Virus record (IMG/VR): IMGVR_UViG_3300012936_000189
Span: 1 to 22,802 of that record
Direction: 5' to 3' (one strand)
Source: a virus
Length of the DNA: 22,802 nt
Both the position numbers and the translations under genes were made by a program. Numbering within the stretch: the first letter of the stretch is position 1; every line of letters begins with the position of its first letter. The notes under the pieces were generated by a model that did no database searches, was not told the origin of the DNA, and saw only the letters and a program-made list of their open reading frames with translations. Of the stretch, positions 907-15,919 are shown piece after piece.

Positions 907-1176
907 CTATTCTAGTACTCCTAATACATAATTCTCTAATATCAAGTAATAATTAGAGTGTTGCACACTAATTTGCTGTAACATCTTTTTGTCGATAATG
1001 ATTTTGTCATCAGTATTACAACGTATTGAGACATCATCAGCAACAGCGAGAACATCTACAACTAAGTAGTCTTCTGTAGGGGGTTTGTAGTCATCAGGTA
1101 GTAAAATTCCTGAGTCTGTCTTTTCCTGTGGTGGAGAGTATCCTACCAAAATGTGTCTATTAACTGGTCTTAACAC
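907..1176 (-). CDS. GroES/gp31-like co-chaperonin
   Basis: An 89-aa protein with the GroES layout. The N-terminal strand reads RPVNRHILVGYSPP. A mobile loop with SGILLP (about residues 22-27) is the part that would dock on GroEL. A beta-barrel core follows, and the chain ends ILENYVLGVLE like the GroES C-terminus. By analogy with T4 gp31 it would cap the host GroEL to fold phage proteins such as the major capsid protein; that role is inference. The start is GTG, chosen because AGGAGG lies six bases upstream and in-frame homology begins there. The start overlaps the 3' end of the zinc-ribbon gene by 17 bases, so the ribosome site lies inside that gene. The chain is slightly shorter than E. coli GroES (about 97 aa). 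Confidence 0.82.
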   Translation of the reverse strand: MLRPVNRHILVGYSPPQEKTDSGILLPDDYKPPTEDYLVVDVLAVADDVSIRCNTDDKIIIDKKMLQQISVQHSNYYLILENYVLGVLE

Positions 1177-1409: not shown

Positions 1410-3371
1410 TCACATCATACATGATTCACCATCACAAAACTTAGTTCCTTCTCCACCTTCTTCGGTGTTAAAACGCTGAACCGGGGTGATGCCTTCACTC
1501 ATCTCTTCGTATTGTTCTCGGGTTATTGGCTCGTAAGGAGCCTGGACATATCCAGTCTCTTCATAGCGCAAGAATGATACAGCCTTTAGTCTGGTCTCGT
1601 ACATCTCAAGAGCGGTCTTAATATCCGCTGCTTCTTCGGGTTTAAAAGTCACAGTGATTGAGACAGAGTTATCCGCCCAGTAATGCTGATACTGTGCTGC
1701 AATCTCTAGCTGCTCCCACATTGTAATTTCTCTCTTGCCCTTGACAAAATGTTCTTCATGAACTGGGAACTCTACACACATTGTATTGGGTGAGTAGTGG
1801 TCTGGTTCAATCTTATATCCCGCTGCCGCGAGAGCGGGAAGCATATCACTATCAGCCGCAAAACGAATACGACGAATGTAGTATTCATCTTCGGGGTAAT
1901 GGATGCCGGGGGTAGAGCCGTTGAGAAGCGAAACTGTGCCAGAAGGCTTGATACTTGTCATTCTTACTGATTTTGGAATACAAAGCCAATCAGAGTATTC
2001 TGCGTCCAACTCCTTTACGTGCTCGTAGGCATTGTCACACCACTCCAAAACTTGGCGGCGACCAAACTTGTTGAAAGCCTGAACAACACCAGACTGTGAC
2101 AAGCCAATACGACGGTTCTTTAACATTTTAGCATTGGTCTCGGGCCAATGTGTGTTAGCAAGTGTGACGGTCTTCCCGTAGAGATATGCAATCTTGAGGG
2201 TTGCAAGGTAATCCTCATAGGTTTCATGCTTTGCAGGGAAAGTCTCAACAAGACAACAAAGCTCAGCATCTTCTAGCTGCTGCTCAACGCATGGGTTAAA
2301 GCCCATAACGTTTTTATCATCGTCTCTTGGAGGGTCAGCAAAACGACCGCGAGTTCTTGCGTTGTCAAGCCAGATGTACCCTGGCTCTCCGTTCTTCTGT
2401 GATTGTTCAGCGTGCCAAGTATAGTCCTGACCAACAAGTGCGTGGAAGGAGTTATTGGAACCCCAGCGGTGGTGGGCAAGTTTCTCAGAATCATTCTTCA
2501 TCTGAAGATATTCGCGATCTTCGTGGTTGCCAAGAGCCAATGCAGCAGAGCGACGAACATTGCCAGCAACAACACAGCGACCGATCAAGTTCTCAGTATC
2601 CACAATATCAATAGAAGTTATTTGTTCGCCGGCGCGATCAGAGTAAAGCTGTCCCAAATGCTCATGTAGTTCACGAAGAGGTCCAGAACCGCTGGATGTG
2701 CCGCCAAAACCATTTATAGGAGCGCCATAGGGTCGTATCGCAGAGTAATCAAAGTTGGGAACTTTTGTGCCAAACAAGTACCCATTCAAAAGTATCTTTA
2801 CAGAATCAACCCAGCCTTCGCGGGAGTCTGGAATAGTGTAAGTTTCATTAGTAAACTCTGGCTCTTGAATTGTTAAGGTGCCTGCACCAAGAGTATCAAA
2901 GCCCACACCGATACCAAGCATAAGGGCGTCCATCATCCAAGAAAAAAGATAACCACCCTTTGTGTTAAGTTCTCGGGTTGAACGAAAAGCACAGTTAAAT
3001 AGTCCAGCAGCAGTGCGGGTGTTAACAAACTTTGTTCCCATCATCCACAAGCCACGTCCAGGGGGTGTCCACTTAAGAGTAAACAGGCGCTCGTATGCAT
3101 CCTTGGCAGTGCGCTGCGCTTTCTGGTCATTCCATTCAAGACCAAGCTTATAAACGTGCTGCTTCTGCATCTCAAACATGCCCTCAATAACACGACGGCA
3201 TGTTTGAAACCACTCTTCAGTGCCGGTGGCGTTTTCATCAAACTCGCTTAGTCTGCGGGCATAAGTGCGCTTAAACGTAACATAGCCGAGAGGTCCCCAG
3301 GGGACTTCACGCTCCTTGTACTGGTCAATAAATGTATCTGATAACTTAAATCTGCGAATGTGTGATCTCAT
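1410..3371 (-). CDS. nrdJ: Class II (adenosylcobalamin-dependent) ribonucleoside-triphosphate reductase
   Basis: Reduces ribonucleotides to deoxyribonucleotides for phage DNA synthesis. The 653-aa chain matches the monomeric Lactobacillus leichmannii RTPR type. C127 (GLFNCAF) and C372/C373 would form the substrate-reducing disulfide. NPCVE at 359-363 carries the thiyl-radical Cys361 and Glu363. SIKPSGTVSLL with STPGIHYP (about 473-492) is the phosphate-binding finger typical of the family. The C-terminal CDGESC (646-651) is the C-x4-C pair that re-reduces the active site. It is shorter than the roughly 739-aa bacterial enzyme, but every key residue is present. No intein is seen, although phage RNR genes often carry one. 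The start ATG overlaps the helicase stop (ATGA) and has AAGGAG upstream. A class II enzyme needs cobalamin and works with or without oxygen, so the host presumably makes or imports B12 (inference). Confidence 0.93.
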   Translation of the reverse strand: MRSHIRRFKLSDTFIDQYKEREVPWGPLGYVTFKRTYARRLSEFDENATGTEEWFQTCRRVIEGMFEMQKQHVYKLGLEWNDQKAQRTAKDAYERLFTLKWTPPGRGLWMMGTKFVNTRTAAGLFNCAFRSTRELNTKGGYLFSWMMDALMLGIGVGFDTLGAGTLTIQEPEFTNETYTIPDSREGWVDSVKILLNGYLFGTKVPNFDYSAIRPYGAPINGFGGTSSGSGPLRELHEHLGQLYSDRAGEQITSIDIVDTENLIGRCVVAGNVRRSAALALGNHEDREYLQMKNDSEKLAHHRWGSNNSFHALVGQDYTWHAEQSQKNGEPGYIWLDNARTRGRFADPPRDDDKNVMGFNPCVEQQLEDAELCCLVETFPAKHETYEDYLATLKIAYLYGKTVTLANTHWPETNAKMLKNRRIGLSQSGVVQAFNKFGRRQVLEWCDNAYEHVKELDAEYSDWLCIPKSVRMTSIKPSGTVSLLNGSTPGIHYPEDEYYIRRIRFAADSDMLPALAAAGYKIEPDHYSPNTMCVEFPVHEEHFVKGKREITMWEQLEIAAQYQHYWADNSVSITVTFKPEEAADIKTALEMYETRLKAVSFLRYEETGYVQAPYEPITREQYEEMSEGITPVQRFNTEEGGEGTKFCDGESCMM

Positions 3372-4765
3372 TTGGCTTTACTCCTTAGCTTTCTGAATTT
3401 ATCATACTTGTTTTTTAATATTTCTCTTTGTCCCTTCATATCAATTGCAACCGGACTGGTTACAACTTGTGGTGCCGAGCCGGCAGAGACAACTGGCTTG
3501 GCAAGAATCTTTATACATACATTGGATGTATCCATAAAAAGATCGTAAACCATACCATCTGGTCCGTTACGATTCTTTGCAATAAACATTTTTGCTCTAT
3601 TGTTTTGCTTGTCCTCGATTGTACGCGAGAGCGTGCAAATGAAGTCAGCGACGAAGCACTTGTTGAATGCTTCACTAATCTGCTCCATTGTTACAACTTC
3701 TGCATTGAGACCAGAACGGTTGGTCTGAGATGCAGTCCAAACAGGGCAGTTGAACTCATTAGAAAGTCCTCGTAGTTCCTCGTAGATTGACTCCAGTTCC
3801 GTTCGTTTTTCTTTTCGGACTACTACTGGGCGTAACAAATCTGCGTAGTCTACAATGACCATACCGGGCTCTATGCCCCTTTTAACCAAGCGGGACAAGT
3901 GAGCCTTGATTGTGTTTGTGGAAGCAGACTTCGTTGGATATTCTTTGACGATTAGAGTTCCATCAAGATTCTTGATCTCTTCAAAGATTTCATCCTTGAA
4001 ATTGCTGAGATCGGATAGAGGATACTTTGTGATACAAGAATCGTAGCGACAAGCAACAACCGTGTCTTGCAACTCCAAAGTGTAATGAACAACAGTCTTG
4101 CCCTCTTTGATAGCTTGAGATCCAAGGTGAACAAGAGCCATAGACTTACCTGCCCCAGTGGGAGCAATAACGACGCCAAGCTCATTTCTACCAAGTCCAC
4201 CACTTGTAATGTTGTCAATTTCATCCCACCCTGTTGTAACTGGCAATCTAAACTTTGGCTTGTATCGCTCTTCAAAGTCTGCAATGAAGTCATGGCCAAA
4301 GTTATTCTCTGACCCCAACTTGAGGGCATCGTTGATAACCTTTGAAATCTCGTCAAACGAACAAGTTTGAAGCAGATTTACAGACTTCATCATGGCTTCT
4401 TTCAACTTTTGCTTACGGCAGAAGTCAAGAGAGGTCTCCTTGATATAATCTATATCGTCCGCTATCTCGTTTGTGTGAACTCTCGCAAAGTAATCACGAA
4501 CTTGCTGCTGTGTAACTTCGCTTTCACGGTCAAGTTCTGTCCGCAAGATCGAAATCATAGCATTCGTTGACGGATGCTTTCCATACTTTGTTCTGTACTC
4601 AACAATCTTCGCAACAAATGCACGAAGATATTCAAGCTCTAGAAACTCAACGTCTAGAACTTCTGTAATCTGGTCTGCGAAGGGTCTGTCCTCAAATATG
4701 AGTTGAACAAGCCCTTCTTGGAAGGATTTTCCATACCTTCCAAAGTCTGCTTTGTGTGCAAGCAT
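3368..4765 (-). CDS. DnaB/gp41-like replicative DNA helicase
   Basis: Predicted hexameric 5'-3' fork helicase, 465 aa. Residues 1-160 form an N-terminal helical domain. A RecA-like motor follows, with Walker A APTGAGKS at 201-208, the family Glu in HYTLELQ at about 227-233, Walker B MVIVDYADLL at 302-311, the H3-type motif PVWTASQTNRSG at 341-352 and the C-terminal KNRNGPDG (397-404), which holds the probable arginine finger. These are the DnaB/T4 gp41 landmarks in the normal order. The tail (441-465) is strongly basic. No primase is fused to it or visible in the window. A sigma-70-like promoter lies just upstream and AGGAG precedes the ATG. The gene leads the unit that continues, with overlaps, into the reductase, co-chaperonin and endolysin genes. 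Confidence 0.92.
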   Translation of the reverse strand: MLAHKADFGRYGKSFQEGLVQLIFEDRPFADQITEVLDVEFLELEYLRAFVAKIVEYRTKYGKHPSTNAMISILRTELDRESEVTQQQVRDYFARVHTNEIADDIDYIKETSLDFCRKQKLKEAMMKSVNLLQTCSFDEISKVINDALKLGSENNFGHDFIADFEERYKPKFRLPVTTGWDEIDNITSGGLGRNELGVVIAPTGAGKSMALVHLGSQAIKEGKTVVHYTLELQDTVVACRYDSCITKYPLSDLSNFKDEIFEEIKNLDGTLIVKEYPTKSASTNTIKAHLSRLVKRGIEPGMVIVDYADLLRPVVVRKEKRTELESIYEELRGLSNEFNCPVWTASQTNRSGLNAEVVTMEQISEAFNKCFVADFICTLSRTIEDKQNNRAKMFIAKNRNGPDGMVYDLFMDTSNVCIKILAKPVVSAGSAPQVVTSPVAIDMKGQREILKNKYDKFRKLRSKAK

Positions 4766-4863: not shown

Positions 4864-5442
4864 CTACCAGTTCTTGCAGGACCAGTAGCGAGCTTTCAAT
4901 TTGGAGCCTGGATTGTCGCAGTTGTGACGAGCACGGAAATTCTTTCTACGTCCCTTCTGCTTACGCTTGATCTTCAATCCAGCATCTCCATAACGGATGA
5001 TCTTTTCTGTCCCACCGTCGCATGCCTTGACGACAAACTTCTTCTTGCCGTGACCTGCTTCACCCTTACGAATACGTCGGGGCGAGTTGCACTTCATCTT
5101 ATCCTTAGCGGACTTCTTCTTTTTCTTCTTTTCGTCAAGAACAGCTTGGTATTCTTCTCTTATAATCACAGAAAGTTGATTTCTAGTCATATTACCATAG
5201 GTTTCACAGGGAGTATTTCCGCAGCCACAGTTCATGCCTTCTTCGATGTTTTCTTCTTTTAGATCTTCATCGTCAGAACGATCAACGATGTCATCTATAT
5301 CATCAGCCTGTGCAGCATGCATCTTTGATGAACCTTTTAACTGCTTTGAAATCTTTTTTAGTTTCTTTTCATCAGCTTTAGAGTGTGATTCATCAAGTGC
5401 TTCCTTTATCAACGCATGTAATTCTGTTTTGGTAAGTTTCAT
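4864..5442 (-). CDS. Lys-rich modular protein with two IREE-type helices and a C-terminal Cys mini-domain
   Basis: A 192-aa protein of unknown function. It has three parts: an N-terminal helix LTKTELHALIKEALDE (3-18) followed by an acidic linker; a Cys cluster CGCGNTPC (72-79) and a second helix NQLSVIIREEYQAVLDE (88-104) running into a poly-Lys stretch; and a basic C-terminal module (about 112-192) ending RARYWSCKNW-like, with Cys at 118, 141, 175 and 189. I recall similar short basic modules in other marine phage proteins, but cannot give a role. It overlaps the preceding Lys-rich gene by ATGA, so the two are probably translated together. Candidate roles are DNA-packaged internal proteins, scaffold-like cores or structural additives. 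It ends about 100 bases before the helicase start. Confidence 0.7.
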   Translation of the reverse strand: MKLTKTELHALIKEALDESHSKADEKKLKKISKQLKGSSKMHAAQADDIDDIVDRSDDEDLKEENIEEGMNCGCGNTPCETYGNMTRNQLSVIIREEYQAVLDEKKKKKKSAKDKMKCNSPRRIRKGEAGHGKKKFVVKACDGGTEKIIRYGDAGLKIKRKQKGRRKNFRARHNCDNPGSKLKARYWSCKNW

Positions 5443-6206
5443 TTTTTCTTTTTCTTTCCTTTCTTTTGTGGGTCAGTCTTGACATATGTGGGTTTTGCGG
5501 CACCAGTCTTCTTTGTTTGATTTGGATCTTTCTTTCTCTTTCTCCTGCCAGCGGATTCTCTTTCTTTCTTGCTCATACTGCTGTATTTCTTTCTTGAAAC
5601 ACATTTAGGTGTAGTCTTTTGTCCTGGCTGTCTGGCGCAAGGCTTTCCATCATACTTGCCGCCAGCTTGTCGCCAGCCCCCGCCCTTGAACCATTGATTT
5701 AGGTTCTCTTCGTCTAGTTCTATTTCCTCGTCCTCATTAATTTTTTTTTTATTCAACTTCATAACTGCTGCGTATTCTTCACGAATAATCTGTAGCAAAT
5801 GATCATCAAACTCTATACTTTCTTTCTTCTTTGACTTGTTGCCCCAGTTGGCAGCACCAACTTTACGGCATTTGACAAGTGCGCCACTGGCGTAGGCAGA
5901 TGGCCACACGTCGTAGCGAGCCTTTACCTTATGATAGCAGGCATCTTTCTTACCACTGCTCTTCTTCTTTTTCTTCTTGCGCTTCTTTCTTTTTTCATCT
6001 AGCTCAATTTGTTCTGATTCAGATACTTGTTTCATCTTTTTGCGCAGACTTTTCATATTATATTTACCTAACTTAGATAGTTTGGTAAGCTGTTGTAGGG
6101 CGGCAGCGCTTCTATTCTTGACGTATTCGGCTTCAAGTTTTGCAATTTTGCTTGCATTTGCAGCCGCCTCAAGTATAGTGTCATCAATTTCGTAGAGTTC
6201 TTCCAT
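5439..6206 (-). CDS. Lys-rich modular protein with one IREE-type helix and Cys mini-domains
   Basis: A 255-aa very basic protein, function unknown. Residues 1-60 are helical. A poly-Lys/Arg tract (72-87) is followed by a compact module at about 88-125 containing CYHKVKARY and WPSAYASGALVKCRK, a pattern I recall from many marine phage proteins. FDDHLLQIIREEYAAVMKL (133-151) closely repeats a helix in the next gene. A second module (about 171-250) has WFKGGGWRQ, two Cys (190, 202), RRKRKK and KPTYVKTDPQ, and the chain ends in poly-Lys. The modules look like beads on charged linkers. The start ATG lies at the edge of a perfect inverted repeat whose loop holds the ribosome site. It follows the exonuclease gene by 26 bases. 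A virion or nucleoid-binding role is plausible, but is inference only. Confidence 0.72.
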   Translation of the reverse strand: MEELYEIDDTILEAAANASKIAKLEAEYVKNRSAAALQQLTKLSKLGKYNMKSLRKKMKQVSESEQIELDEKRKKRKKKKKKSSGKKDACYHKVKARYDVWPSAYASGALVKCRKVGAANWGNKSKKKESIEFDDHLLQIIREEYAAVMKLNKKKINEDEEIELDEENLNQWFKGGGWRQAGGKYDGKPCARQPGQKTTPKCVSRKKYSSMSKKERESAGRRKRKKDPNQTKKTGAAKPTYVKTDPQKKGKKKKK

Positions 6207-6232: not shown

Positions 6233-7198
6233 TCACTTATCATTACATTCCCTTGAAATCTTGTTTAGGAATGTTTTTAGTTCCTCCCAGTTCAACTCAC
6301 CAAATCCGTCTTCGATCATTAGCTTTAGAAGCTCAGTCTTGTGAAAGTCACACTCAAAGTTCTCCAGGGCATAGTCAATGGTTTGTTTGCCCTGCACTGA
6401 AATAAGCGGAGAATACAGCTGCATCATGTCATAATTGTGTTCAATCAACTTTCTTGACTCTGCGATGGTTTTGAAAACTTTTAGTTTTGATTCTGTGCTC
6501 TCACAGTATTCAATCAGTTCGTCAATTGTTACGCTTCGCTCTTCCTTCATAAAAGGAAGCTTAGTAGCGATGGTCTTCATGCCCACGCGATTGACACCCG
6601 GTAGGTTGTCGCTAGCATCACCATCCATAGCACGAGCAAGAGCCATATTTGTTGGATGAATGCCAAGGCTTTCAATCACAGTCTTCTTGGTTTCAATTTT
6701 GTCAGTGGTTGGTCTATATACAACCGTCTCGTCGTCGCAAAGCTGTAGAAAGTCTTTGTCGTTTGAAACAATTACCTTCTGCCAACCGTCGTAGTGTCGA
6801 GAGTTGCAAACATAAGAAATAATATCATCTGCTTCTACTCTCTCAAGGATAAGTTGGATAATAGGCATTTGGTTAAAGTATTCAATAACCTGCATCTGCT
6901 GCCATACTTTGTTCTGGATCTCTTCGTTCTCTGTCAGGTTGTGTACAGAGCGATTAAGACGCAGAGGCTTACGTCCCTCTTTGTACCCAGAGTTTAGGGT
7001 TTTGCGCTTTTGTGAGCCATTTGGTCCATCCCAGCAGATTACAATTTCATTTGGCTTTGTGATTCTTACAAGCTTTTGTAGAATCTTGATAGATCCCTTG
7101 ATACCACCGATTGGCTGTCCGTGCTGTGACAGACTAGGATCAACGATGAACGCCCTCAAAAACATATTGAGGGCGTCGATAACAAGTACACGTTTCAT
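6233..7198 (-). CDS. 5'-3' exonuclease / flap nuclease (FEN family)
   Basis: A 321-aa structure-specific nuclease, related to T4 RNase H and the 5' nuclease domain of Pol I. It would remove RNA primers and flaps from Okazaki fragments. The metal-binding acids are in the usual places: D8 (VLVIDALN), D57 (ICWDGPNG), E122/D124/D125 (RVEADDI), D147/D149 (SNDKDFLQL, 145-153) and GDASDNLPG (193-201), which opens the H3TH DNA-binding motif. The polymerase in this window lacks its own 5' nuclease, so this gene probably supplies it. A sigma-70-like promoter overlaps the recA stop codon. The ribosome site GGAGG, six bases before the ATG, sits in the arm of an inverted repeat that spans the promoter -10. 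Confidence 0.92.
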   Translation of the reverse strand: MKRVLVIDALNMFLRAFIVDPSLSQHGQPIGGIKGSIKILQKLVRITKPNEIVICWDGPNGSQKRKTLNSGYKEGRKPLRLNRSVHNLTENEEIQNKVWQQMQVIEYFNQMPIIQLILERVEADDIISYVCNSRHYDGWQKVIVSNDKDFLQLCDDETVVYRPTTDKIETKKTVIESLGIHPTNMALARAMDGDASDNLPGVNRVGMKTIATKLPFMKEERSVTIDELIEYCESTESKLKVFKTIAESRKLIEHNYDMMQLYSPLISVQGKQTIDYALENFECDFHKTELLKLMIEDGFGELNWEELKTFLNKISRECNDK

Positions 7199-7234: not shown

Positions 7235-7245
7235 CACGCTGTCAA
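7217..7245 (-). promoter_or_regulatory. Sigma-70-like promoter for the exonuclease gene
   Basis: Consensus -35 TTGACA (7240-7245), 17-base spacer, -10 TATATT (7217-7222) preceded by TG. The -35 overlaps the recA stop codon. The predicted start near 7210 leaves a leader of only about 12 bases that begins at the ribosome site. Confidence 0.82.
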
Positions 7246-8360
7246 GAGGCTTTGTCTACCTCATAGAAATCGGAGGCATCACCTTCGCGCTTGTCGAACT
7301 TCTGCACGACCACTTCATCCATAAAGTCCATGACGTGCTTCTTAAATTCTTCGTCCTTCTCAAGAAGGTCAACCCACTTACTGGGCTGGAACCGCTTCAT
7401 ATACTTGCCATGCTGGAAAGTATACCAAGAGCCTGAGACGGTCATAAAGTTTTTAAGTGCCTCGAACCAAGATGCCTCATCTTGAACGCCTACCTCATCT
7501 GTACCCCATAAGATACGGAAGGTACAATTCCTGCCCTGAGTTCCAAAGCGAGACTTCTCCAACTTTACCTTGACCTCGGATCCAATACGGAATCCGTTTT
7601 CGTCTTCGATGTATGCTGCCTTACTTCTACGACCTGTGAGCCAGATACGAAGAGAGTAAGAGTAGTGCATCGCCTTGCCACCGGGAGTGATGTAGGGGGT
7701 AGTCATCGCAATCTGTCGAGCCATTGGACCCTGTGGAATATTGGTCTTCAATTGATTGAGGACAAGGAATGTTGCACGCTTATCAGCCAGAGGCACAATC
7801 AGCTTTGACATGCCCTTTGCGAGAATACGAGCCTTTGTGGCCACAGATGATTGTGGGTTGAAGTCACCTTCGACATCCGACACTGATGGAGTAAATGCAA
7901 GAGAGTCCCAGATAAATAGCATCTTGTCGTCCGTTGCCCCAAGAATGTCTTCAATTGTCTCTAGCACAAACTCTACAGATGGTGTCTGGATATACATAAG
8001 TGATTCTAAATCACAACCCGCCCGCTCCAAGAAAGCAGGGTCAATTGCAGACTCTGAATCAAAGTACACAACTCCAATCCCCATCTTCTGTGCGTTTGCT
8101 GCAATCTGTGCAGCAAGGAAGGACTTACCTGTTGCCTCAAGTCCTGCAAGTTCTGTTACCTTTCCAACTGGAATGCCTGCATACTTGCCCTTGCAGATAA
8201 TAGAATCAAGCCAGCGAGATCCTGTGGGAATCCATAACTTTACTTCTGTTGGGTTGTCTTCACGAAGGTCATGCGCCACATTGCGCTTTGCCTTTTTGTT
8301 TATCATTGCTCTAAGGTCAGACATAGATACACGCCCAGCCTTAGCTTTTGCTTTAGCCAT
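7242..8360 (-). CDS. RecA/UvsX-type recombinase
   Basis: A 372-aa ATP-dependent strand-exchange protein, for recombination-dependent replication and repair. Walker A is GLEATGKS (73-80) and Walker B LFIWDSLAF (148-156). The loop-2 region contains LNQLKTNIPQGP (201-212), and TPGGKAMHYSYSLRIWL (225-241) is the RecA-family motif next to the polymerisation and DNA-binding surfaces. A basic, Ala-Lys-rich N-terminus (MAKAKAKAG) precedes the core. The C-terminal 100 residues are divergent and contain acidic stretches, as in RecA and UvsX tails. It has its own promoter and a leader that begins with a UUCG-loop hairpin, with AAGGAG seven bases before the ATG. It lies between the SSB and exonuclease genes, forming a compact recombination/replication block. 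Confidence 0.95.
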   Translation of the reverse strand: MAKAKAKAGRVSMSDLRAMINKKAKRNVAHDLREDNPTEVKLWIPTGSRWLDSIICKGKYAGIPVGKVTELAGLEATGKSFLAAQIAANAQKMGIGVVYFDSESAIDPAFLERAGCDLESLMYIQTPSVEFVLETIEDILGATDDKMLFIWDSLAFTPSVSDVEGDFNPQSSVATKARILAKGMSKLIVPLADKRATFLVLNQLKTNIPQGPMARQIAMTTPYITPGGKAMHYSYSLRIWLTGRRSKAAYIEDENGFRIGSEVKVKLEKSRFGTQGRNCTFRILWGTDEVGVQDEASWFEALKNFMTVSGSWYTFQHGKYMKRFQPSKWVDLLEKDEEFKKHVMDFMDEVVVQKFDKREGDASDFYEVDKAS

Positions 8361-8457: not shown

Positions 8458-8486
8458 AAAAACCCCCACCTTTTTACGGGTGGGGG
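8458..8486 (-). terminator. Intrinsic terminator after the SSB gene
   Basis: Minus-strand stem CCCCCACC / GGTGGGGG (8479-8486 and 8463-8470) with an eight-base loop, followed by TTTTT (8458-8462) and TCTTT. It lies just after the SSB stop codon. Confidence 0.92.
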
Positions 8487-8508: not shown

Positions 8509-9276
8509 CTAGCCAGCCATCAACTCGTCAAATGCCTTATCCACGCTTGACTTCTTGTTGGTGTTATACTGAGTGGTTTCGCGAGACCGTGACTCAGCAG
8601 ACTTATCACCTGATAGCATTGCGTCTAGGATACCATTGACCTCTTCGGTCGAATGACGAGTGAATAGTGAATTAATATCCGGCATGTTCTGAAGCAGACC
8701 GGGGATTGCATCCTTATCTGCCAGAAGCGGACTGGTGTTACGGCGCATCTTCATGTTGGTCTTGGGGTATGCGCCAGGAGCAGTCGGCTTTGTGTATGTG
8801 ATAGTAATATCAGTTCCACCGGTGGGATCCGTGATATCTCCATATTCTGGGTCGAGAATGTAGCCCAGTAGAAGTTCATAAGCCTGCTTGCCGTAGCCAT
8901 AGACCTTGACTCCATCCTCTTCCATACCACGAACGACCACTGGCGAGAAGTAACGAGTACGAACAAAGAGTGACTTTGCAAGCTTCTTGGTTTCCTCATC
9001 GTTGTTTTCGGTGCCGTCGCGCCAAAGCTGTGACGCAAAATCACAAATTGGACAAGCTTCACCAAAGTTGCGCTTTGGACACATCACACCGCCACGGTGT
9101 CCTTCGATGTTGTAGTGGAAGAAGATTTCCTTTAGTGGATCTCCATCTGGTGCGGGGACAATACGAACGTCTGTATCTCCCTCTTCTGGCTTGAACCATA
9201 CACTGGTTCGATCGCTCTTTCCTTCTCCACGAAGTGCGGCGAGCTTCTTCCGCATAAGTTCCATGTTGATTCCCAT
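8509..9276 (-). CDS. gp32-like single-stranded DNA-binding protein with zinc site
   Basis: Single-stranded DNA-binding protein, 255 aa, of the T4 gp32 type. The N-terminal basic segment MRKKLAALRG would be the cooperativity arm. H60, C66, C75 and C78 give H-x5-C-x8-C-x2-C, close to the gp32 zinc site (H-x12-C-x9-C-x2-C). An OB-type core with aromatic and basic residues follows, then a polar Ser/Thr/Asn-rich linker and a C-terminal VDKAFDELMAG tail. I chose the ATG at 9276 because AAGGAG lies eight bases upstream. An earlier in-frame ATG at 9324 falls at or before the predicted transcription start and has no ribosome site. It has its own promoter and is followed by a strong terminator, as expected for a protein needed in large, separately controlled amounts. 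Confidence 0.92.
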   Translation of the reverse strand: MGINMELMRKKLAALRGEGKSDRTSVWFKPEEGDTDVRIVPAPDGDPLKEIFFHYNIEGHRGGVMCPKRNFGEACPICDFASQLWRDGTENNDEETKKLAKSLFVRTRYFSPVVVRGMEEDGVKVYGYGKQAYELLLGYILDPEYGDITDPTGGTDITITYTKPTAPGAYPKTNMKMRRNTSPLLADKDAIPGLLQNMPDINSLFTRHSTEEVNGILDAMLSGDKSAESRSRETTQYNTNKKSSVDKAFDELMAG

Positions 9277-9305
9277 AGTGTTCTCCTTGTGTTGGGCTAT
9301 AGTAT

Positions 9306-9322
9306 GACGAGCGTTCCTCGCC
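9306..9322 (-). promoter_or_regulatory. 5'-terminal hairpin in the SSB leader
   Basis: GGCGAG-GAACG-CTCGTC on the minus strand gives a six-pair stem (one G-U) at the predicted 5' end of the SSB mRNA. The ribosome site further down stays unpaired. Confidence 0.5.
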
Positions 9323-9327
9323 ATCTT

Positions 9328-9415: not shown

Positions 9416-10279
9416 TCAGCGTCGGCTGTCAAGAGTGTTTTGTCCTTGAATGTAGTTTGTGTGTGCTACGCAGAACCCAAAGTCTGTTTCATAGGGCGAC
9501 TCATAAATAGCATAAGTCACATTTTTGAATGCATTTCTGGGTTTACTTTTGAGACTTTGGACGACCTTCGAATGAAGCTTTCCGTCGGTCTCTAGACGCT
9601 TTTCCGCTATACATAAATAGTATGCTACGTCACGATCTTCCTCTAATTTATAATACCATTGTTCAGAAAGCTTGTCTACTGAAACGACACCAACAGAGCG
9701 TATTTTCTGCACTTCTGATGGCTTTGTTAGGTTGCCAACGAGCGCCTCCGTGTGGTCGAAGACATTTAGATAATGAACAGCATAGTAGATGTTCTTGTTG
9801 ATCATATCAAAATATTTTTTTATTGGGATTTCGCCTATTGTCTTCTCAATTGCCGGGTTTGACAAGATTGTGAAACTCTTAAAAAGCCCAGACCTCGCAT
9901 ATTCCTGTAATATACCAAATATTGCCCTCTCTTGCAACCTAACATCGCCTATTAAAAGGTCTACGTCGGGCTTGATGTAAAAGATCTCTATCTCTTTGTC
10001 TCTTATCTGCTGTAGGATTGCAAGCGTGTAATTTGCCGAGAATGATGACCCGCAAACAAACACTTGAACCCTGTCCTGTACTGCCTGTAACGTTTTATAA
10101 GACGAAAGCTTAGGCGCTTTCTCCTCACAATCTTCTGCTTTTTCTACTCTTGGTAAATCTCTTGTGTATTTTGTGTTGTCTCTTCCCTCCGAGAACAAAA
10201 AACAATTATATTCTTTGTGGTCTCCAAACAACGACACAATATTACATCCAGCATCGCCTATTCCTATCAGCGATATCAT
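9416..10279 (-). CDS. Divergent tubulin/FtsZ-like protein
   Basis: A 287-aa protein whose motif order matches the tubulin/FtsZ superfamily. The N-terminal phosphate loop is IGIGDAGCNIVSLF (5-18; FtsZ has VGGGGGNAV). A strand followed by VCGSSFSANYTLAILQQI (75-92) stands where FtsZ has GGGTGTGAAP. Next comes YIKPD at 101-105 (FtsZ TKPF), then LQERAIFGILQEYARS (115-130) and NPAIEKTIGEIPIKKYFDMINK (from 141), which parallels the FtsZ N..L/D-F..N region. The tubulin signature itself is degraded, so GTP hydrolysis or polymerisation may be lost or changed. Phage tubulins known to me (PhuZ, TubZ) position or segregate phage DNA. The gene overlaps the polymerase stop by ATGA, implying coupled translation. 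The fold call is from motifs only; a Rossmann-type protein of another family is the alternative. Confidence 0.68.
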   Translation of the reverse strand: MISLIGIGDAGCNIVSLFGDHKEYNCFLFSEGRDNTKYTRDLPRVEKAEDCEEKAPKLSSYKTLQAVQDRVQVFVCGSSFSANYTLAILQQIRDKEIEIFYIKPDVDLLIGDVRLQERAIFGILQEYARSGLFKSFTILSNPAIEKTIGEIPIKKYFDMINKNIYYAVHYLNVFDHTEALVGNLTKPSEVQKIRSVGVVSVDKLSEQWYYKLEEDRDVAYYLCIAEKRLETDGKLHSKVVQSLKSKPRNAFKNVTYAIYESPYETDFGFCVAHTNYIQGQNTLDSRR

Positions 10280-11466
10280 AACTTCAACTCCTTCAACTCT
10301 CCGTAATTCTTACCTGCTTTGACATTTGCTCTAAACGAACCAAGTTTATTGTTTTGAAACACCTCCTTCAACTCTGGTATAAGATATCTGTCATTCTCAT
10401 GGATGTCAAGTACAATTTCATCATGGACGATGAAAGCAACGTGAGACTGTGTGTCCTCAAGAAGCTTGTCAAGTTCAACTGCACGATCGATCGTAAGATC
10501 GGCTGTCGTACTCTGAATGATGTAATTGAAAGCGCGCCGTTGATCGACCTTGATCTTTCTCTTGAATGGAGTCTCGATACGATCACCATAGAAGTAATCC
10601 CCGATCACTCGCTCTCTGCTGTAAACGGAATCATTGAGCGAATTGTCTTCGTTGTTATAGAACGACGCGAAGAATCTCACTTTGGCTTCCTCTCTATCTA
10701 TTGGATGATCGCCATATAGATGTTTCATGTTCCACTGGTGGATATCTTCATCAGGCTGTTCTACACCTGAGAGGGCCAAGAAAGTTCTAACTTCTGCGCC
10801 GTTGTAATCAAACGACACAAGCCAATCGTTTGTGGGCTTGACGATGGAACGCAATTTTGACTTCATCGTGAGAACAGGAAAGCTATCTTTATTGGTCGTC
10901 AGACGCCCTGTAACAGTTCCAAAAATATTATAGTCAACGTAGTGCGACTTATTTTTTACAAGCTTCTGTATGTCCTGCCTGTCCGCTGTAGAGGTCATAA
11001 GGCTGCGACAACCATCAACATTGACGTTCAACTTCTGGTAACCGATCTTGTGGATCAGTTTATAAGCACGATCAAGATGATCATAGTTCTGTGGTTTGCT
11101 GTGATTGACAAACACATGCTCTGTAATTTTATTACGCATCTCACAAAATTGAAGCAAGAAGTCGCTTGGCACGAGATCAAAGAAACAATTCTGGCGCAAG
11201 TCAATCTTGGCAATCTGAAACGACTTCAGATAAGCTTTGAAAGTTTTTTGTAGTTCTGTAAAATCATCTTTCAGATACTCTGGGCATACATCTTGTAATT
11301 TTTGTCCGCCACATCGTAACCAAGCATACTCAATACTTGAATCTTGAACTGAACCTGTGTATTTCCAAGTCTTTGATAGACCTGCTGGCATGCTATCAAA
11401 ATACAACTTGCCATCAACATACACGCCAACACACTCTGACTTATCGTCAAGGGTTTGAAAGATCAT
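10276..11466 (-). CDS. Family A DNA polymerase, polymerase domain only
   Basis: A 396-aa replicative polymerase. Motifs are TGRLTT (186-191), motif A SFDYNGAEVRTFLALSG (218-234, catalytic D220), motif B REEAKVRFFASFY (258-270), NYIIQSTTAD (314-323) and motif C VHDE (347-350, catalytic D349). E. coli Pol I R754, K758, F762 and Y766 align with R258, K262, F266 and Y270. The segment between Y270 and R311 is much shorter than in Pol I, so the fingers domain is reduced. There is no 3'-5' exonuclease or 5' nuclease domain; the first 120 residues match nothing I recognise. A separate proofreading exonuclease, as in Rhodothermus phage RM378, is expected elsewhere. It is joined to the upstream gene by TAATG and to the tubulin-like gene by ATGA. 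Confidence 0.9.
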   Translation of the reverse strand: MIFQTLDDKSECVGVYVDGKLYFDSMPAGLSKTWKYTGSVQDSSIEYAWLRCGGQKLQDVCPEYLKDDFTELQKTFKAYLKSFQIAKIDLRQNCFFDLVPSDFLLQFCEMRNKITEHVFVNHSKPQNYDHLDRAYKLIHKIGYQKLNVNVDGCRSLMTSTADRQDIQKLVKNKSHYVDYNIFGTVTGRLTTNKDSFPVLTMKSKLRSIVKPTNDWLVSFDYNGAEVRTFLALSGVEQPDEDIHQWNMKHLYGDHPIDREEAKVRFFASFYNNEDNSLNDSVYSRERVIGDYFYGDRIETPFKRKIKVDQRRAFNYIIQSTTADLTIDRAVELDKLLEDTQSHVAFIVHDEIVLDIHENDRYLIPELKEVFQNNKLGSFRANVKAGKNYGELKELKL

Positions 11467-12653
11467 TATTCCTCACGTCGTCTTCTTTGTCTTTCAGTAA
11501 CATAACTCAAGGATCCTATGCTGTCAAACGGTTGATTTACAATTGTTTCAAAAGTCTGTAGGCAGCTTGATAATCCTCGTATTTTATATAATCTGATACA
11601 ATCATCAATCAATCTTTTTTGCTCAGCATGTGTCAACTTTTTATCTTCTTCGATTATTCTTATTTTAAAGTACAAATTCAGTAATCTTTCTTCATTGAAT
11701 TGGTTATTAAATGCCTCAACATTGATTTTTTTAATTTCTATGTATCTCGTTTGTTGCACTCCATTGCAATCAAAAGGCTCAGCATAAGATATGGCATTTT
11801 GATTATACAAATTTAATAAATAAAATTTTAGTTTGTTAAAAAATATTAAATCAGTTCTACCATAAGTTTCATTTAAAATTTGATCTGTATTTAGTAAACC
11901 ATATACTCTGCTATATTGTAAACACTCACTACTTCCAATATCTGCCACTAATCTCCAAGGTATTAATTTATCTATCATGAAACCGTATGATCGGCAAGCG
12001 TTTAAATAAAATTCCCAATTAGGGCTATTAATAAATTGCTCTATCTTTCCGTTGTCATCAAAGTAATCAGAATCTGCTATTTCTATGCTGAGTCCAGAAA
12101 CAGAGATCGGGCAGAATCGACTCTTGACAAAACCAGCAAATGTAATAGGATATAACTTGAGCGACTCTTCCAGTAACGACTCCAGTGCAACCATAAATTC
12201 ATTTAAATTGTTATAACGTCTTTTCTTCAACTGTCTAGAAAAACTATTAAGTTGTGTTTGCAGAAAAGATCCGTGTAATTCTTCAGGATTCTGAAAAGCT
12301 TTGTAAACTTTCAATTGACTTAAAAATGGGTCATCTGCTGATATTTTTCCAATTGTTACACATTTTTGAAATTGTGTTGCGAGTCTTTCAAACATATCAA
12401 CAACAAAATTTATTGCTTGGGGCGGTGTACCTTCTGCATTGATTGGATTAAATGTTTTTAATTCAACTAAACTATTATTAAAGTAAATCGGTTTAAAATT
12501 TCTAGATACTCTTCCATATAAAAATTTTTCTCCAAAATTAAAATTGACTAAATTTTTATAATTTGAGTTTTGTGAATCAAAATCATAAATAATTCTTTTA
12601 TTAAAAATTCTTAATGTTGTTTCATCTTCTTTTTCTACATATATTTCAGACAT
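11466..12653 (-). CDS. Unrecognised AT-rich protein at the end of the baseplate cluster
   Basis: A 395-aa protein that I do not recognise. It is hydrophilic, rich in Asn, Phe, Tyr, Ile and Lys, with no membrane segment, signal peptide or catalytic motif visible, and it ends in RERQRRRREE. Its DNA is visibly the most AT-rich in the window, matching the hub gene before it and unlike the replication genes. It is joined to the hub gene by TAATG and to the polymerase gene by TAATG, so all three are probably translated in sequence. Its position after the hub suggests a baseplate or tail-tip structural protein. A role with the polymerase cannot be excluded, because it separates the two modules. Confidence 0.75.
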   Translation of the reverse strand: MSEIYVEKEDETTLRIFNKRIIYDFDSQNSNYKNLVNFNFGEKFLYGRVSRNFKPIYFNNSLVELKTFNPINAEGTPPQAINFVVDMFERLATQFQKCVTIGKISADDPFLSQLKVYKAFQNPEELHGSFLQTQLNSFSRQLKKRRYNNLNEFMVALESLLEESLKLYPITFAGFVKSRFCPISVSGLSIEIADSDYFDDNGKIEQFINSPNWEFYLNACRSYGFMIDKLIPWRLVADIGSSECLQYSRVYGLLNTDQILNETYGRTDLIFFNKLKFYLLNLYNQNAISYAEPFDCNGVQQTRYIEIKKINVEAFNNQFNEERLLNLYFKIRIIEEDKKLTHAEQKRLIDDCIRLYKIRGLSSCLQTFETIVNQPFDSIGSLSYVTERQRRRREE

Positions 12654-15600
12654 TATTGTGTTCTAACTCCGCATTTTTTAACTTCGGCGCCACCTGAACC
12701 TGCGGCACTTGAGTATTGTTTTTGTTTGCTCTCCTCTTCTGAATCCAAAGATTGTACCCACTTGGCTGTTATTGATGTATTCATTTTCCCAGGACCAAAA
12801 TCATGTTCAGAGGAAATAATCATGTAATATCCACCAATACCCAAATCAGTTAAATCAAATTTATCTATATCAAATTGCCCCAATGATGGAGAAAAACCGC
12901 GTGGCTCAACAAAAATATAAGTACCAGGGAAAGCATGAATATTACAAAAAGTTTCAATATTTACATCATAGATTTCTCTTAATTGGTATAATCCTTGGTA
13001 GCCTTCTTGTTCAAATCTAACTTCTTTCAATCCAGGGGAATCAGTCTTGTTTAATTTAATAGTTTTAACAATTCCTCTATCTCGACCCATTATATAATGA
13101 AAAACTCCGTTTTTTTGATCTTGCGATCTTTCTCCTTTTAACAATTCAGGTGGAGCACTACGACCAGCGTAAAAAATGAAGAAATGATTTTCGTTCTCTG
13201 GACCCAAATTGGATGGCGCAAGCATTCTATGTCCTCCAATATTTAATACTGGACGCTGAGAGTCGTCCAATAAATCAATGTTCAATCTTTTTGTTAATCT
13301 TCCTATTTCTGAAGAATTTATCAATGTTGAAATATCGTCTTTATCTTGCTCTGGTTGCCTATAAGAAGTTACTGTAGATTGGAATAATCTAGTTTTTTGT
13401 TTTATATTAAAGTCATAACAACTATCATCGTTCAAAAAATTTCTAACTAAATTATTTACCAAATCATTTAAAAATTGAATTAATGGGTATGTCGCTGAGT
13501 CTTTTGCAAGCACTTTGCTTGTAAGCCATTCGTTAAAATATGCTAAAGATACTGGAATATCAGCCATGCTAACTCTAGAAACCTGCCCGACATTTTTATG
13601 ATTTACAATTTCAACGGGACCAAGCACAAGTCTGAATTTTTTGAATTGTGTTTTAGAGTTTACTAATATTTCTTTTTCTTGTTCTATTAATTCAGGATCT
13701 ATTTCTAATTCAGCGCCGCCGCCTCCGGTGTAAACTTTGGGAAGGTCAGAAATTGAATCCAAATTTTTACCAATTTTTTCCAGAACAATATCAATTAAGT
13801 CACCCAAAAAGAAAAAAGGAATTTGACGATTATCAATACCAGAGATCTTGAAAGAATTCTTCAAGCCTTTTTTATCTTTGTCTTTCGCACTATCAAATTT
13901 TTTATTAAATGCTTCTTCTAAATCTTTACTTATTGACTCTGAAGTTATAGAACCATCAGTAGTAATTTTTTGCTTAATATCTTTAAATTCGAAAAATGGT
14001 CCTGCTGATATCAAGTCATCAAATTCACTTTTACTTAAATTTAAGTAATAAACTAAATCATTAACCAGCAACTCAGTTGTCAAAAATTGTAAACTTTGAA
14101 TCTTATCTTTTTTTAATTGCGCTGCATCATTCTCAATAAATTTATTCAATATTTCAACATCATCTTTGTCAACACAATTTTTTTTCTGAGTTCTAATACC
14201 AAGCTCTCTTGATATTACTCTCTTGTTTATATCTGAATCTGCGAAAATGTTCATTCTTGCTTTATCAAAAAATTCTTCAATATAAGCATAATACTCTATG
14301 TTAAATTTTACGGCGCCGGTTTCGTCAAAATCAAAAGTATGGGTGACTGGCGTAAGATTCAATGTGACATAGTTATTTTGAACTGCTGCTCTTATGTCAT
14401 CAAAATTTGCGGTAACTTCCGCATCTGGAACCGACAAGCCGACGATTGCTTTAATTCTAAAATCTAATTCTTTACTTTGTGTTTTTTCTTTTATGGCTTT
14501 TCCTGTCTTTAGAGCTAAATCAATATACCTATAGCCTCTTGAGTCATCCAATAACTCTGAAAAATTATTTGCTGTTATTGTTAGACTTGCTCTTATGCTT
14601 TTTTTAACTGAAAACGGATTGCTTCCTTCATATTTAAAAGTAAAGTTCTGTAATCCAACTCCAAAGCCCCTTTTATCTTTCCTATCAAAAATACTACTAA
14701 CATCACTTTTTCTAGCAAAAGTATCAAAAGCAAATTCAGTTTCAATTTCGGAGTTTCCATCTGGCGCAACCCTAAATAATCTTATAGTTGGTTGTAAATG
14801 TGCCAATTGTGCGTTCGTCGCTTCAAAAAAATTAACCATAGAGCCATATTGTGTTAGTTTGTTTATGAATGCATATGGTCTTCCATCTACTAAAAGACTA
14901 GAATTATCACCATCATCGCCGGTTTCATATGGCAGCTTCTTTGATGTTTGTTCTTGAATGCTTCTCAGCATTGCTGCTGTAAAGTCCATTGGATCCACTC
15001 CAACATCATCTACCCCTGTGGTATGGGCTTGGTGAATTTGTGATAATTGAAAAATCAGTGCAAGCATCGCACATTGTTCTTTAAACTCTTTTGGAATCTC
15101 TCGTAGTAAAGGGGTTGTCGCACCTGTTTTTGGGCCAATTTCATTGCTAAGATTCTCTCGTGCTTGCTGTACCTCCTCTGGTGACATATCACTAAATTCA
15201 CCACGCTTCATGATTGCATCGTCTAGTGCATCAGTAGCAATAATTTTTTGCTTTTGTTCTATTGACCATAACTCTTCAGCACATTTTCTTGCGCCTTGCT
15301 GTGAATCTGGTGCTCCAACAATTTCTGCTAACGAACCTAAAAGCTCTTGTAGTTCATCTATTTTTTCCTTTTGAACGCTATCAATATCGTCACTTTCTTT
15401 TACTGTGTTGGCAGAAGTGGTCAGATATAAAATTGATTTAAAGATATTATCTGGAGAATTTTTATCATATTTTCCAGAATCTAATTCTCTTTTTATTGCC
15501 TCATCGGTCGCATCACCAAACCCAAGAAAAACATACTCTTTATCTGCTGCTCTACCAGTTTCTCCAGAAAAATAATAATGAGAAAGTTTGTATGCATCAT

Positions 15601-15919
15601 TTAAAGTTTGTTTTTCTATTGGTCTACTAAGGTCTACATTATTCATGAATTGAAAACTGCTTGGGTTTACAAAATATTCAGGGGGTGCAACGCTATCTGT
15701 AATCAGTTGAACATATTCATCATATTCAGCAAGTTGTGATTTTAGTAGATTAAATTTCTCTTTTTGTGATTTTATATCACCATAACATTCCTCGATCTTA
15801 GAACAATTTTCTTTAATATGTTCTTTAAGATCTTCTGTAGCTGCTGAGTCATAATCAACAAAACATTTTTCTCTTGGTTCTTCCTCTTCTTCTGATGAAG
15901 ACCACCAACCGAGTGCCAT
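12653..15919 (-). CDS. Giant baseplate hub-like structural protein
   Basis: A 1088-aa protein, the largest in the window. The N-terminus is acidic with a probable coiled coil (about 30-60, CSKIEECYGDIKSQKEKF). The last 150 residues resemble the end of gp27/late-control-D type hub proteins: a stretch with FCNIHAFPGTYIFVEPRG, then LGIGGYYMIISSEHDFGPG and NTSITAKWV, the strand pattern that closes the hub ring. The middle is mixed alpha/beta and unassigned. By analogy it would form the central ring that connects tube and spike and may hold the tape measure end. No lysozyme or peptidase motif is evident. It follows the LysM gene after a single base and runs into the next gene by TAATG. The DNA is AT-rich. 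The hub assignment rests on the C-terminus and gene order. Confidence 0.72.
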   Translation of the reverse strand: MALGWWSSSEEEEEPREKCFVDYDSAATEDLKEHIKENCSKIEECYGDIKSQKEKFNLLKSQLAEYDEYVQLITDSVAPPEYFVNPSSFQFMNNVDLSRPIEKQTLNDAYKLSHYYFSGETGRAADKEYVFLGFGDATDEAIKRELDSGKYDKNSPDNIFKSILYLTTSANTVKESDDIDSVQKEKIDELQELLGSLAEIVGAPDSQQGARKCAEELWSIEQKQKIIATDALDDAIMKRGEFSDMSPEEVQQARENLSNEIGPKTGATTPLLREIPKEFKEQCAMLALIFQLSQIHQAHTTGVDDVGVDPMDFTAAMLRSIQEQTSKKLPYETGDDGDNSSLLVDGRPYAFINKLTQYGSMVNFFEATNAQLAHLQPTIRLFRVAPDGNSEIETEFAFDTFARKSDVSSIFDRKDKRGFGVGLQNFTFKYEGSNPFSVKKSIRASLTITANNFSELLDDSRGYRYIDLALKTGKAIKEKTQSKELDFRIKAIVGLSVPDAEVTANFDDIRAAVQNNYVTLNLTPVTHTFDFDETGAVKFNIEYYAYIEEFFDKARMNIFADSDINKRVISRELGIRTQKKNCVDKDDVEILNKFIENDAAQLKKDKIQSLQFLTTELLVNDLVYYLNLSKSEFDDLISAGPFFEFKDIKQKITTDGSITSESISKDLEEAFNKKFDSAKDKDKKGLKNSFKISGIDNRQIPFFFLGDLIDIVLEKIGKNLDSISDLPKVYTGGGGAELEIDPELIEQEKEILVNSKTQFKKFRLVLGPVEIVNHKNVGQVSRVSMADIPVSLAYFNEWLTSKVLAKDSATYPLIQFLNDLVNNLVRNFLNDDSCYDFNIKQKTRLFQSTVTSYRQPEQDKDDISTLINSSEIGRLTKRLNIDLLDDSQRPVLNIGGHRMLAPSNLGPENENHFFIFYAGRSAPPELLKGERSQDQKNGVFHYIMGRDRGIVKTIKLNKTDSPGLKEVRFEQEGYQGLYQLREIYDVNIETFCNIHAFPGTYIFVEPRGFSPSLGQFDIDKFDLTDLGIGGYYMIISSEHDFGPGKMNTSITAKWVQSLDSEEESKQKQYSSAAGSGGAEVKKCGVRTQ

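Follow-up and report, generated by a model that had tools for sequence, protein, structure and literature searches.

A gene of a large uncultured phage group encodes a 287-aa protein that, by its predicted fold and not by its signature, belongs to the tubulin/FtsZ superfamily; both this assignment and the pairing of the gene with a DNA polymerase gene are well supported. The best reading of model and sequence is that the product is a tubulin-fold pseudo-GTPase, and we see about an even chance that it serves the phage replication complex as a structural accessory. The DNA analysed here (the window) is an entire IMG/VR record of 22,802 bases, itself a fragment. Its genes are those of T4-type tail and replication functions (Table 1), and no chimallin or multisubunit RNA polymerase gene was assigned in its annotated part.

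Table 1. Features of the window around the tubulin-fold gene; residue numbers refer to the 287-aa protein
Feature	Position	Strand	Basis
Cpn10/GroES-like co-chaperonin, phage-encoded	907-1176	-	Pfam 9.4e-9
B12-dependent (class II) ribonucleotide reductase	1410-3371	-	adjoins DnaB-like helicase, stop/start overlap
DnaB-like replicative helicase	3368-4765	-	PF03796 2.1e-21
5'-3' exonuclease (RNase H-type)	6233-7198	-	PF02739 6.6e-28
UvsX/RecA-like recombinase	7242-8360	-	phrog_97 8.7e-57
Intrinsic-terminator-like hairpin after gp32	8463-8486	-	consensus scan; weak, fewer found than in shuffles
gp32-like ssDNA-binding protein, next downstream gene	8509-9324	-	Pfam gp32 3.4e-15, phrog_1192
Tubulin/FtsZ-fold protein (predicted), 287 aa	9416-10279	-	ORF, AlphaFold2, Foldseek, hundreds of viral contigs
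Post-H7 segment, residues 176-192, without NxDxxD and without H8	9704-9754	-	model DSSP, conservation
H7 start YFDMIN, with aromatic 157 and N161	9797-9814	-	hhalign register, conservation
T6-like SNPAIE, with N141	9845-9862	-	hhalign register; N141 in 197/211
QEYARSG patch, residues 125-131	9887-9907	-	conservation
Eroded T4 signature CGSSFSANYT, residues 76-85, at the place of FtsZ GGGTGTG	10025-10054	-	hhalign register, conservation
T1-like nucleotide loop GIGDAGCN, residues 6-13	10241-10264	-	conservation
ATGA stop/start overlap with polA	10276-10279	- (TCAT on +)	sequence; -4 spacing in 115/171 related loci
Shine-Dalgarno-like GAAGGAG, within the end of polA	10288-10294	-	sequence; 8 nt 5' of ATG
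Compact family A DNA polymerase (polA), 396 aa	10276-11466	-	PF00476 E 1.1e-15; PDB matches Taq/Klenow

Predicted fold

The AlphaFold2 model was built from 43 diverse homologues and is confident (pLDDT 91.6, pTM 0.90), with agreement among the five models; it replaced a first model from 22 sequences (pLDDT 67) whose C-terminal half was too poor. The three parts that characterize the superfamily fold are all there: a nucleotide-binding sandwich, a long H7 (residues 153-175) and a C-terminal sheet domain, its strands lying within residues 193-274 (DSSP). Among the 50 PDB matches listed by Foldseek, all are FtsZ or TubZ, and the best, 2r6r, aligns over ~320 columns at ~13% identity (E 1.2e-12, TM 0.71). 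The answer was again FtsZ/TubZ for an earlier, weaker model made from a different alignment, and in the viral library BFVD the best matches of the model bear the names FtsZ, cell division protein or tubulin-like protein. A preliminary description of the window had proposed a tubulin/FtsZ fold from motifs in the protein, and structure prediction bears this out; a confident fold of some other kind, which would have told against the proposal, did not appear.

By sequence the family goes unrecognised in Pfam, PHROGs, NCBIfam and PADLOC. Of 43 members a single one matched PF00091, at E 0.18, the best hit of TIGR00065 was also at E 0.18 (homologue L119), and PDB sequence searches with the window protein and family profiles returned no FtsZ match, so that membership is not seen by PF00091, TIGR00065 or a solved-FtsZ profile. 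Profile-profile alignment (hhalign) of the family with eight FtsZ sequences scored 23.4, as against 12.0-19.4 in eight decoys; the E value of 0.026 is unconvincing taken alone. The register is collinear, pairing GIGDAGCN with T1, CGSSFSANYT with T4, KPD-LIG with KPF-FEG, SNPAIE with the T6 sequence PNDKLL, and YFDMIN with FGAAND at the start of H7. GIGDAGCN, CGSSFSANYT and KPD (residues 103-105) are where the preliminary description had placed them, and the FtsZ-like order and spacing that it had claimed hold in this independent alignment, through SNP-E/PND-L and YFDMIN/FGAAND.

The gene and its family

The minus-strand ORF and its ATGA overlap with the polymerase gene, both reported earlier, are confirmed in the sequence, and the start codon is ATG. 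Compared with two homologues, L001 and L038, the window gene shows 72 synonymous and 12 non-synonymous differences and 106 and 52, respectively. Since close homologues differ mostly synonymously, and since homologues number in the hundreds, we take the ORF to be a functional gene under purifying selection and no chance ORF. Its translation is likely coupled to that of polA, though not obligatorily, because the gene has a Shine-Dalgarno-like sequence of its own.

Searching with the window protein matched 65 viral loci. Profile searches of IMG/VR gave two overlapping sets of at least 582 and at least 587 confirmed relatives, for a total of at least about 590, on contigs that reach 155-191 kb. 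No homologue was returned by tblastn with three members against 50,697 phage records, or by a scan of a bacterial and archaeal genome collection. A description of the family was not found in the literature covered; subscription journals and preprints lay outside that scope, and a prior mention is possible. We conclude that this is a new, divergent family of an already known superfamily, in a genomic context that is also new.

An eroding putative nucleotide site

Conservation was counted over 211 distinct full-length homologues. The T1-like loop is nearly constant, with G8 in 210 and G6 in 202 of them. At T4, the place of the GGGTG[ST]G signature, the window protein has CGSSFSANYT. The earlier statement that this loop has lost most of its glycines stands for the window's clade and fails for others, which keep a partial G-S-G-x-[IV]-S-G; counted over the family, G77 occurs in 200/211, G79 in 112/211 and G83 in 85/211. 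Glycine erosion at T4, as judged from these alignments, is thus specific to the window's clade, with the glycines partly kept elsewhere.

The residues expected to contact guanine, namely an Asn in T6 and an aromatic and an Asn at the start of H7, are present at the positions set by the hhalign register. On that register we take N141 to be the counterpart of the FtsZ/tubulin guanine-contact Asn, while aromatic 157 (F/Y in 189/211) and N161 (199/211) presumably correspond to tubulin Y224 and N228. The two asparagines occur together in 197/211 homologues and are both lost in 12, these falling in two sub-lineages; two homologues lack only N141, and none lacks only N161. Such joint loss is as expected if both touch one ligand, in agreement with tubulin and FtsZ, where their counterparts contact the guanine base. 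The putative nucleotide site appears to be under selection, yet dispensable.

Conservation is strictest in the QEYARSG patch, where Q125, R129 and S130 are invariant (211/211), even where the guanine residues are gone from a lineage; we infer for this reason that the patch carries the conserved role, perhaps as a partner-binding surface or a structural site. Within the family, homologues L214-L220 and L248 have gone farthest towards a pseudo-GTPase, their guanine-contact residues being gone and a QEY[AT]RSG-type patch remaining; in L214-L220, T1 is lost as well (CLGPKACD).

The T7 synergy motif NxDxxD is absent after H7, both from the window protein and from the conservation pattern of its homologues: residues 176-192 hold no conserved acid, the best position being 178, with an acid in 114/211. 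Two C-terminal helices, H8 and H9, are missing from the model. The protein therefore departs from the GTP-hydrolysing FtsZ, TubZ and PhuZ polymers in its T7/H8 elements. In the FtsZ/tubulin mechanism the T7 region serves hydrolysis; hence, with no T7 acid and no H8/H9, we predict that GTP hydrolysis is slight or absent and that the lower subunit interface is altered.

Gene order

Gene order was tallied across 197 loci and tested in about 250 of the at least ~590. Upstream stands polA in 172/172 testable loci, and downstream gp32 in 188/188, followed across related loci by uvsX, the 5'-3' exonuclease gene and dnaB; the window, being on the minus strand, enters the tally in reversed orientation. 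The order polA, tubulin-fold gene, gp32 is invariant wherever testable, so the conservation of the polymerase-tubulin pair, which the preliminary description had marked for checking, holds at every such locus. Apart from the loci with the spacing of the window (Table 1), polA and the tubulin-fold gene are separated by short gaps and, in a few loci, by inserted genes; in some, 0.3-2.6 kb of other DNA intervenes. A scan seeded with polA found the tubulin-fold gene in 75/75 new loci (three times as a fragment at a contig end), a result that is silent on distant polymerases because the search patterns came from the polymerases of this clade. Linkage with the polymerase gene, as would be looked for in a replisome accessory, is thus fixed (172/172 and 75/75).

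Flavobacterium phage immuto, Microcystis phage Mel-JY01 and the uncultured huge phage LR756508 carry the same block, its genes (polA for a similar small polymerase, gp32, uvsX, exonuclease, dnaB) ordered alike, and lack the tubulin-fold gene. They differ in having between polA and gp32 a small, unrelated HRKKxxNTLYTIN[AS]LN protein. In relatives without the tubulin-fold gene this small protein is conserved in that slot (L126:1346-1801, L125:5876-6265 and L288:7764-8171). A split tubulin-fold protein was considered for the two small ORFs that separate polA from gp32 in immuto, and rejected: their sequence looks unrelated and the profile gives no match. As these distant relatives manage without it, the tubulin-fold gene is dispensable for such a polymerase, and it was gained, or replaced another gene, within a single large group of aquatic phages, which kept it.

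Some other features of the window may be mentioned. The motif A, B and C catalytic residues of the 396-aa polymerase are invariant, and its N-terminus, FQTLDDKxECVGVYxDG, gives the impression of a possible 3'-5' exonuclease remnant with the catalytic acids lost. Directly upstream of polA, and conserved across related loci, are minus-strand genes for proteins of 395 aa (11466-12653), with no Pfam, PHROGs or NCBIfam family match, and 1088 aa (12653-15919), with no match in phage records. Two lysine-rich proteins with a repeated [LI]IREEYxAV are encoded at 4864-5442 and 5439-6206 (minus strand), and the first of them starts MKLTKTELHALIKEAL. Unrelated ORFs in L116, L120 and L288 have similar, MKxTKxxLKxLIxEEL-like starts, perhaps a targeting peptide.

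A possible role in replication

As a structural accessory of the replication complex, the tubulin-fold protein would be made in step with the polymerase by way of the ATGA overlap, and may bind the compact polymerase, or an assembly of polymerase and gp32, through the Q125/R129/S130 surface. In most lineages bound GTP or GDP would be a structural ligand and not a fuel, so that, as we propose, the protein would scaffold or tether the replisome in place of filament treadmilling. The preliminary description had suggested a non-polymerising scaffold, which would fit the missing T7 motif, the C-terminal helices absent from the model and the lineages without guanine contacts. This functional half, association with the polymerase and mechanism alike, is our inference. 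Several points weigh against it: in a covariation test (216 paired sequences) polA could not be told apart from the control partners, edge effects dominating; distant relatives manage without the gene; other DNA intervenes after polA in some loci; and regulation alone can conserve gene order. A more specific form of the idea is that a widespread group of uncultured aquatic T4-type phages recruited the tubulin fold as a dedicated subunit of the family A polymerase, for processivity or tethering, shedding GTP hydrolysis and, in some lineages, nucleotide binding too; this is possible, and we hold it with less confidence.

Comparison with known tubulin homologues

Phage tubulins are known mainly as GTP-driven filaments from partition systems and from nucleus-forming jumbo phages, the latter being where PhuZ is found. 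The family resembles PhuZ (201phi2-1 gp59, phiKZ gp39) and other phage tubulins in being phage-encoded, in its predicted tubulin fold and in its BFVD matches. PhuZ, unlike the family, keeps its G-box (SLGGGSGS), and by annotation its gene does not lie beside a polymerase gene, whereas the family gene adjoins polA. TubZ of plasmid type III partition (2xka, 4ei7) is likewise similar in fold (Foldseek E 8.8e-12 to 4ei7); against it, the family lacks the signature and the T7 motif, and has polA and gp32 as invariant neighbours with no TubR/centromere partner recognised. PhuZ is a GTP-hydrolysing protein whose filaments are dynamic (PMC4244570). It is rather unlikely, in our judgement, that the window protein forms a filament of PhuZ/TubZ type, cytomotive or static, to position or hold phage DNA in the host cell as it replicates, while the polA neighbourhood sets only the time of expression. 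The fold common to TubZ and PhuZ would suit such a filament, as would the guanine pocket kept in most members and the centring of phage DNA by PhuZ filaments (PMC4244570), but the T7 catalytic acids and the lower-interface elements H8/H9 are missing, T4 is eroded, and two lineages have lost both guanine asparagines. Moreover, no TubR/TubY-like or nucleus-phage genes were recognised nearby, and the invariant neighbours encode replication enzymes (polA, gp32).

With FtsZ (Aquifex aeolicus 2r6r, B. subtilis 2vxy) the family shares the predicted fold and collinear T1/T6/H7-like positions; it has no GGGTGTG, T7 NxDxxD, H8/H9 or C-terminal linker and tail, and its gene is flanked by phage polA and gp32. 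Genes aimed at the host are usually variable in presence and position, whereas this one is fixed in that slot; the region of the QEYARSG patch is, to our knowledge, not an FtsZ interface, and identity to FtsZ is only ~13% by structural alignment. These points make it quite improbable that the protein is a mimic that binds host FtsZ as a one-sided cap and blocks host division, with the early-gene position giving early production. Such a cap would be expected to have just the arrangement seen, with the nucleotide-side domain kept and T7/H8/H9 absent, and FtsZ is often targeted by phages, e.g. by lambda Kil (PMC3961180), T5 protein 008 (PMC10714956) and T7 Gp0.4 (PMC13423816).

A Rossmann-type nucleotide- or NAD-binding regulator, alike to FtsZ only through a three-layer sandwich, would account for weak Pfam matches that include TrkA_N (best 6e-5, in 2/43 members) and is barely credible, given a model with H7 and an FtsZ-type C-terminal domain, listed PDB matches that are every one FtsZ or TubZ over ~320 columns and none a Rossmann dehydrogenase, and an FtsZ register that extends to SNP-E and Y-x-x-x-N.

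FtsZl1 sets a precedent, likened here by description, for departures of this kind: it is a divergent member of the superfamily and differs from FtsZ in the S6-T7 region and the C-terminal domain (Makarova and Koonin 2010, PMC2875224). FtsZl1 is cellular and implicated in membrane remodelling, and the text of that paper does not contain the word phage (PMC2875224). Lacking the defining sequence features of the superfamily's polymerising GTPases, the new family should be kept apart from PhuZ, TubZ and FtsZ.

Significance

The family is an obligate polymerase neighbour in at least about 590 environmental phage loci (with order tested in about 250) that the sequence libraries tried had missed, and its gene can serve to mark a large group of uncultured phages. 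Its members span nucleotide sites from near-canonical to fully eroded, a natural series that could show which part of the fold survives the loss of the motor. If the dedicated-subunit reading is true, a tubulin homologue would have a non-cytoskeletal role in replication. Should the protein bind the polymerase, replisomes would have a subunit of a new kind, and the tubulin fold a new use.
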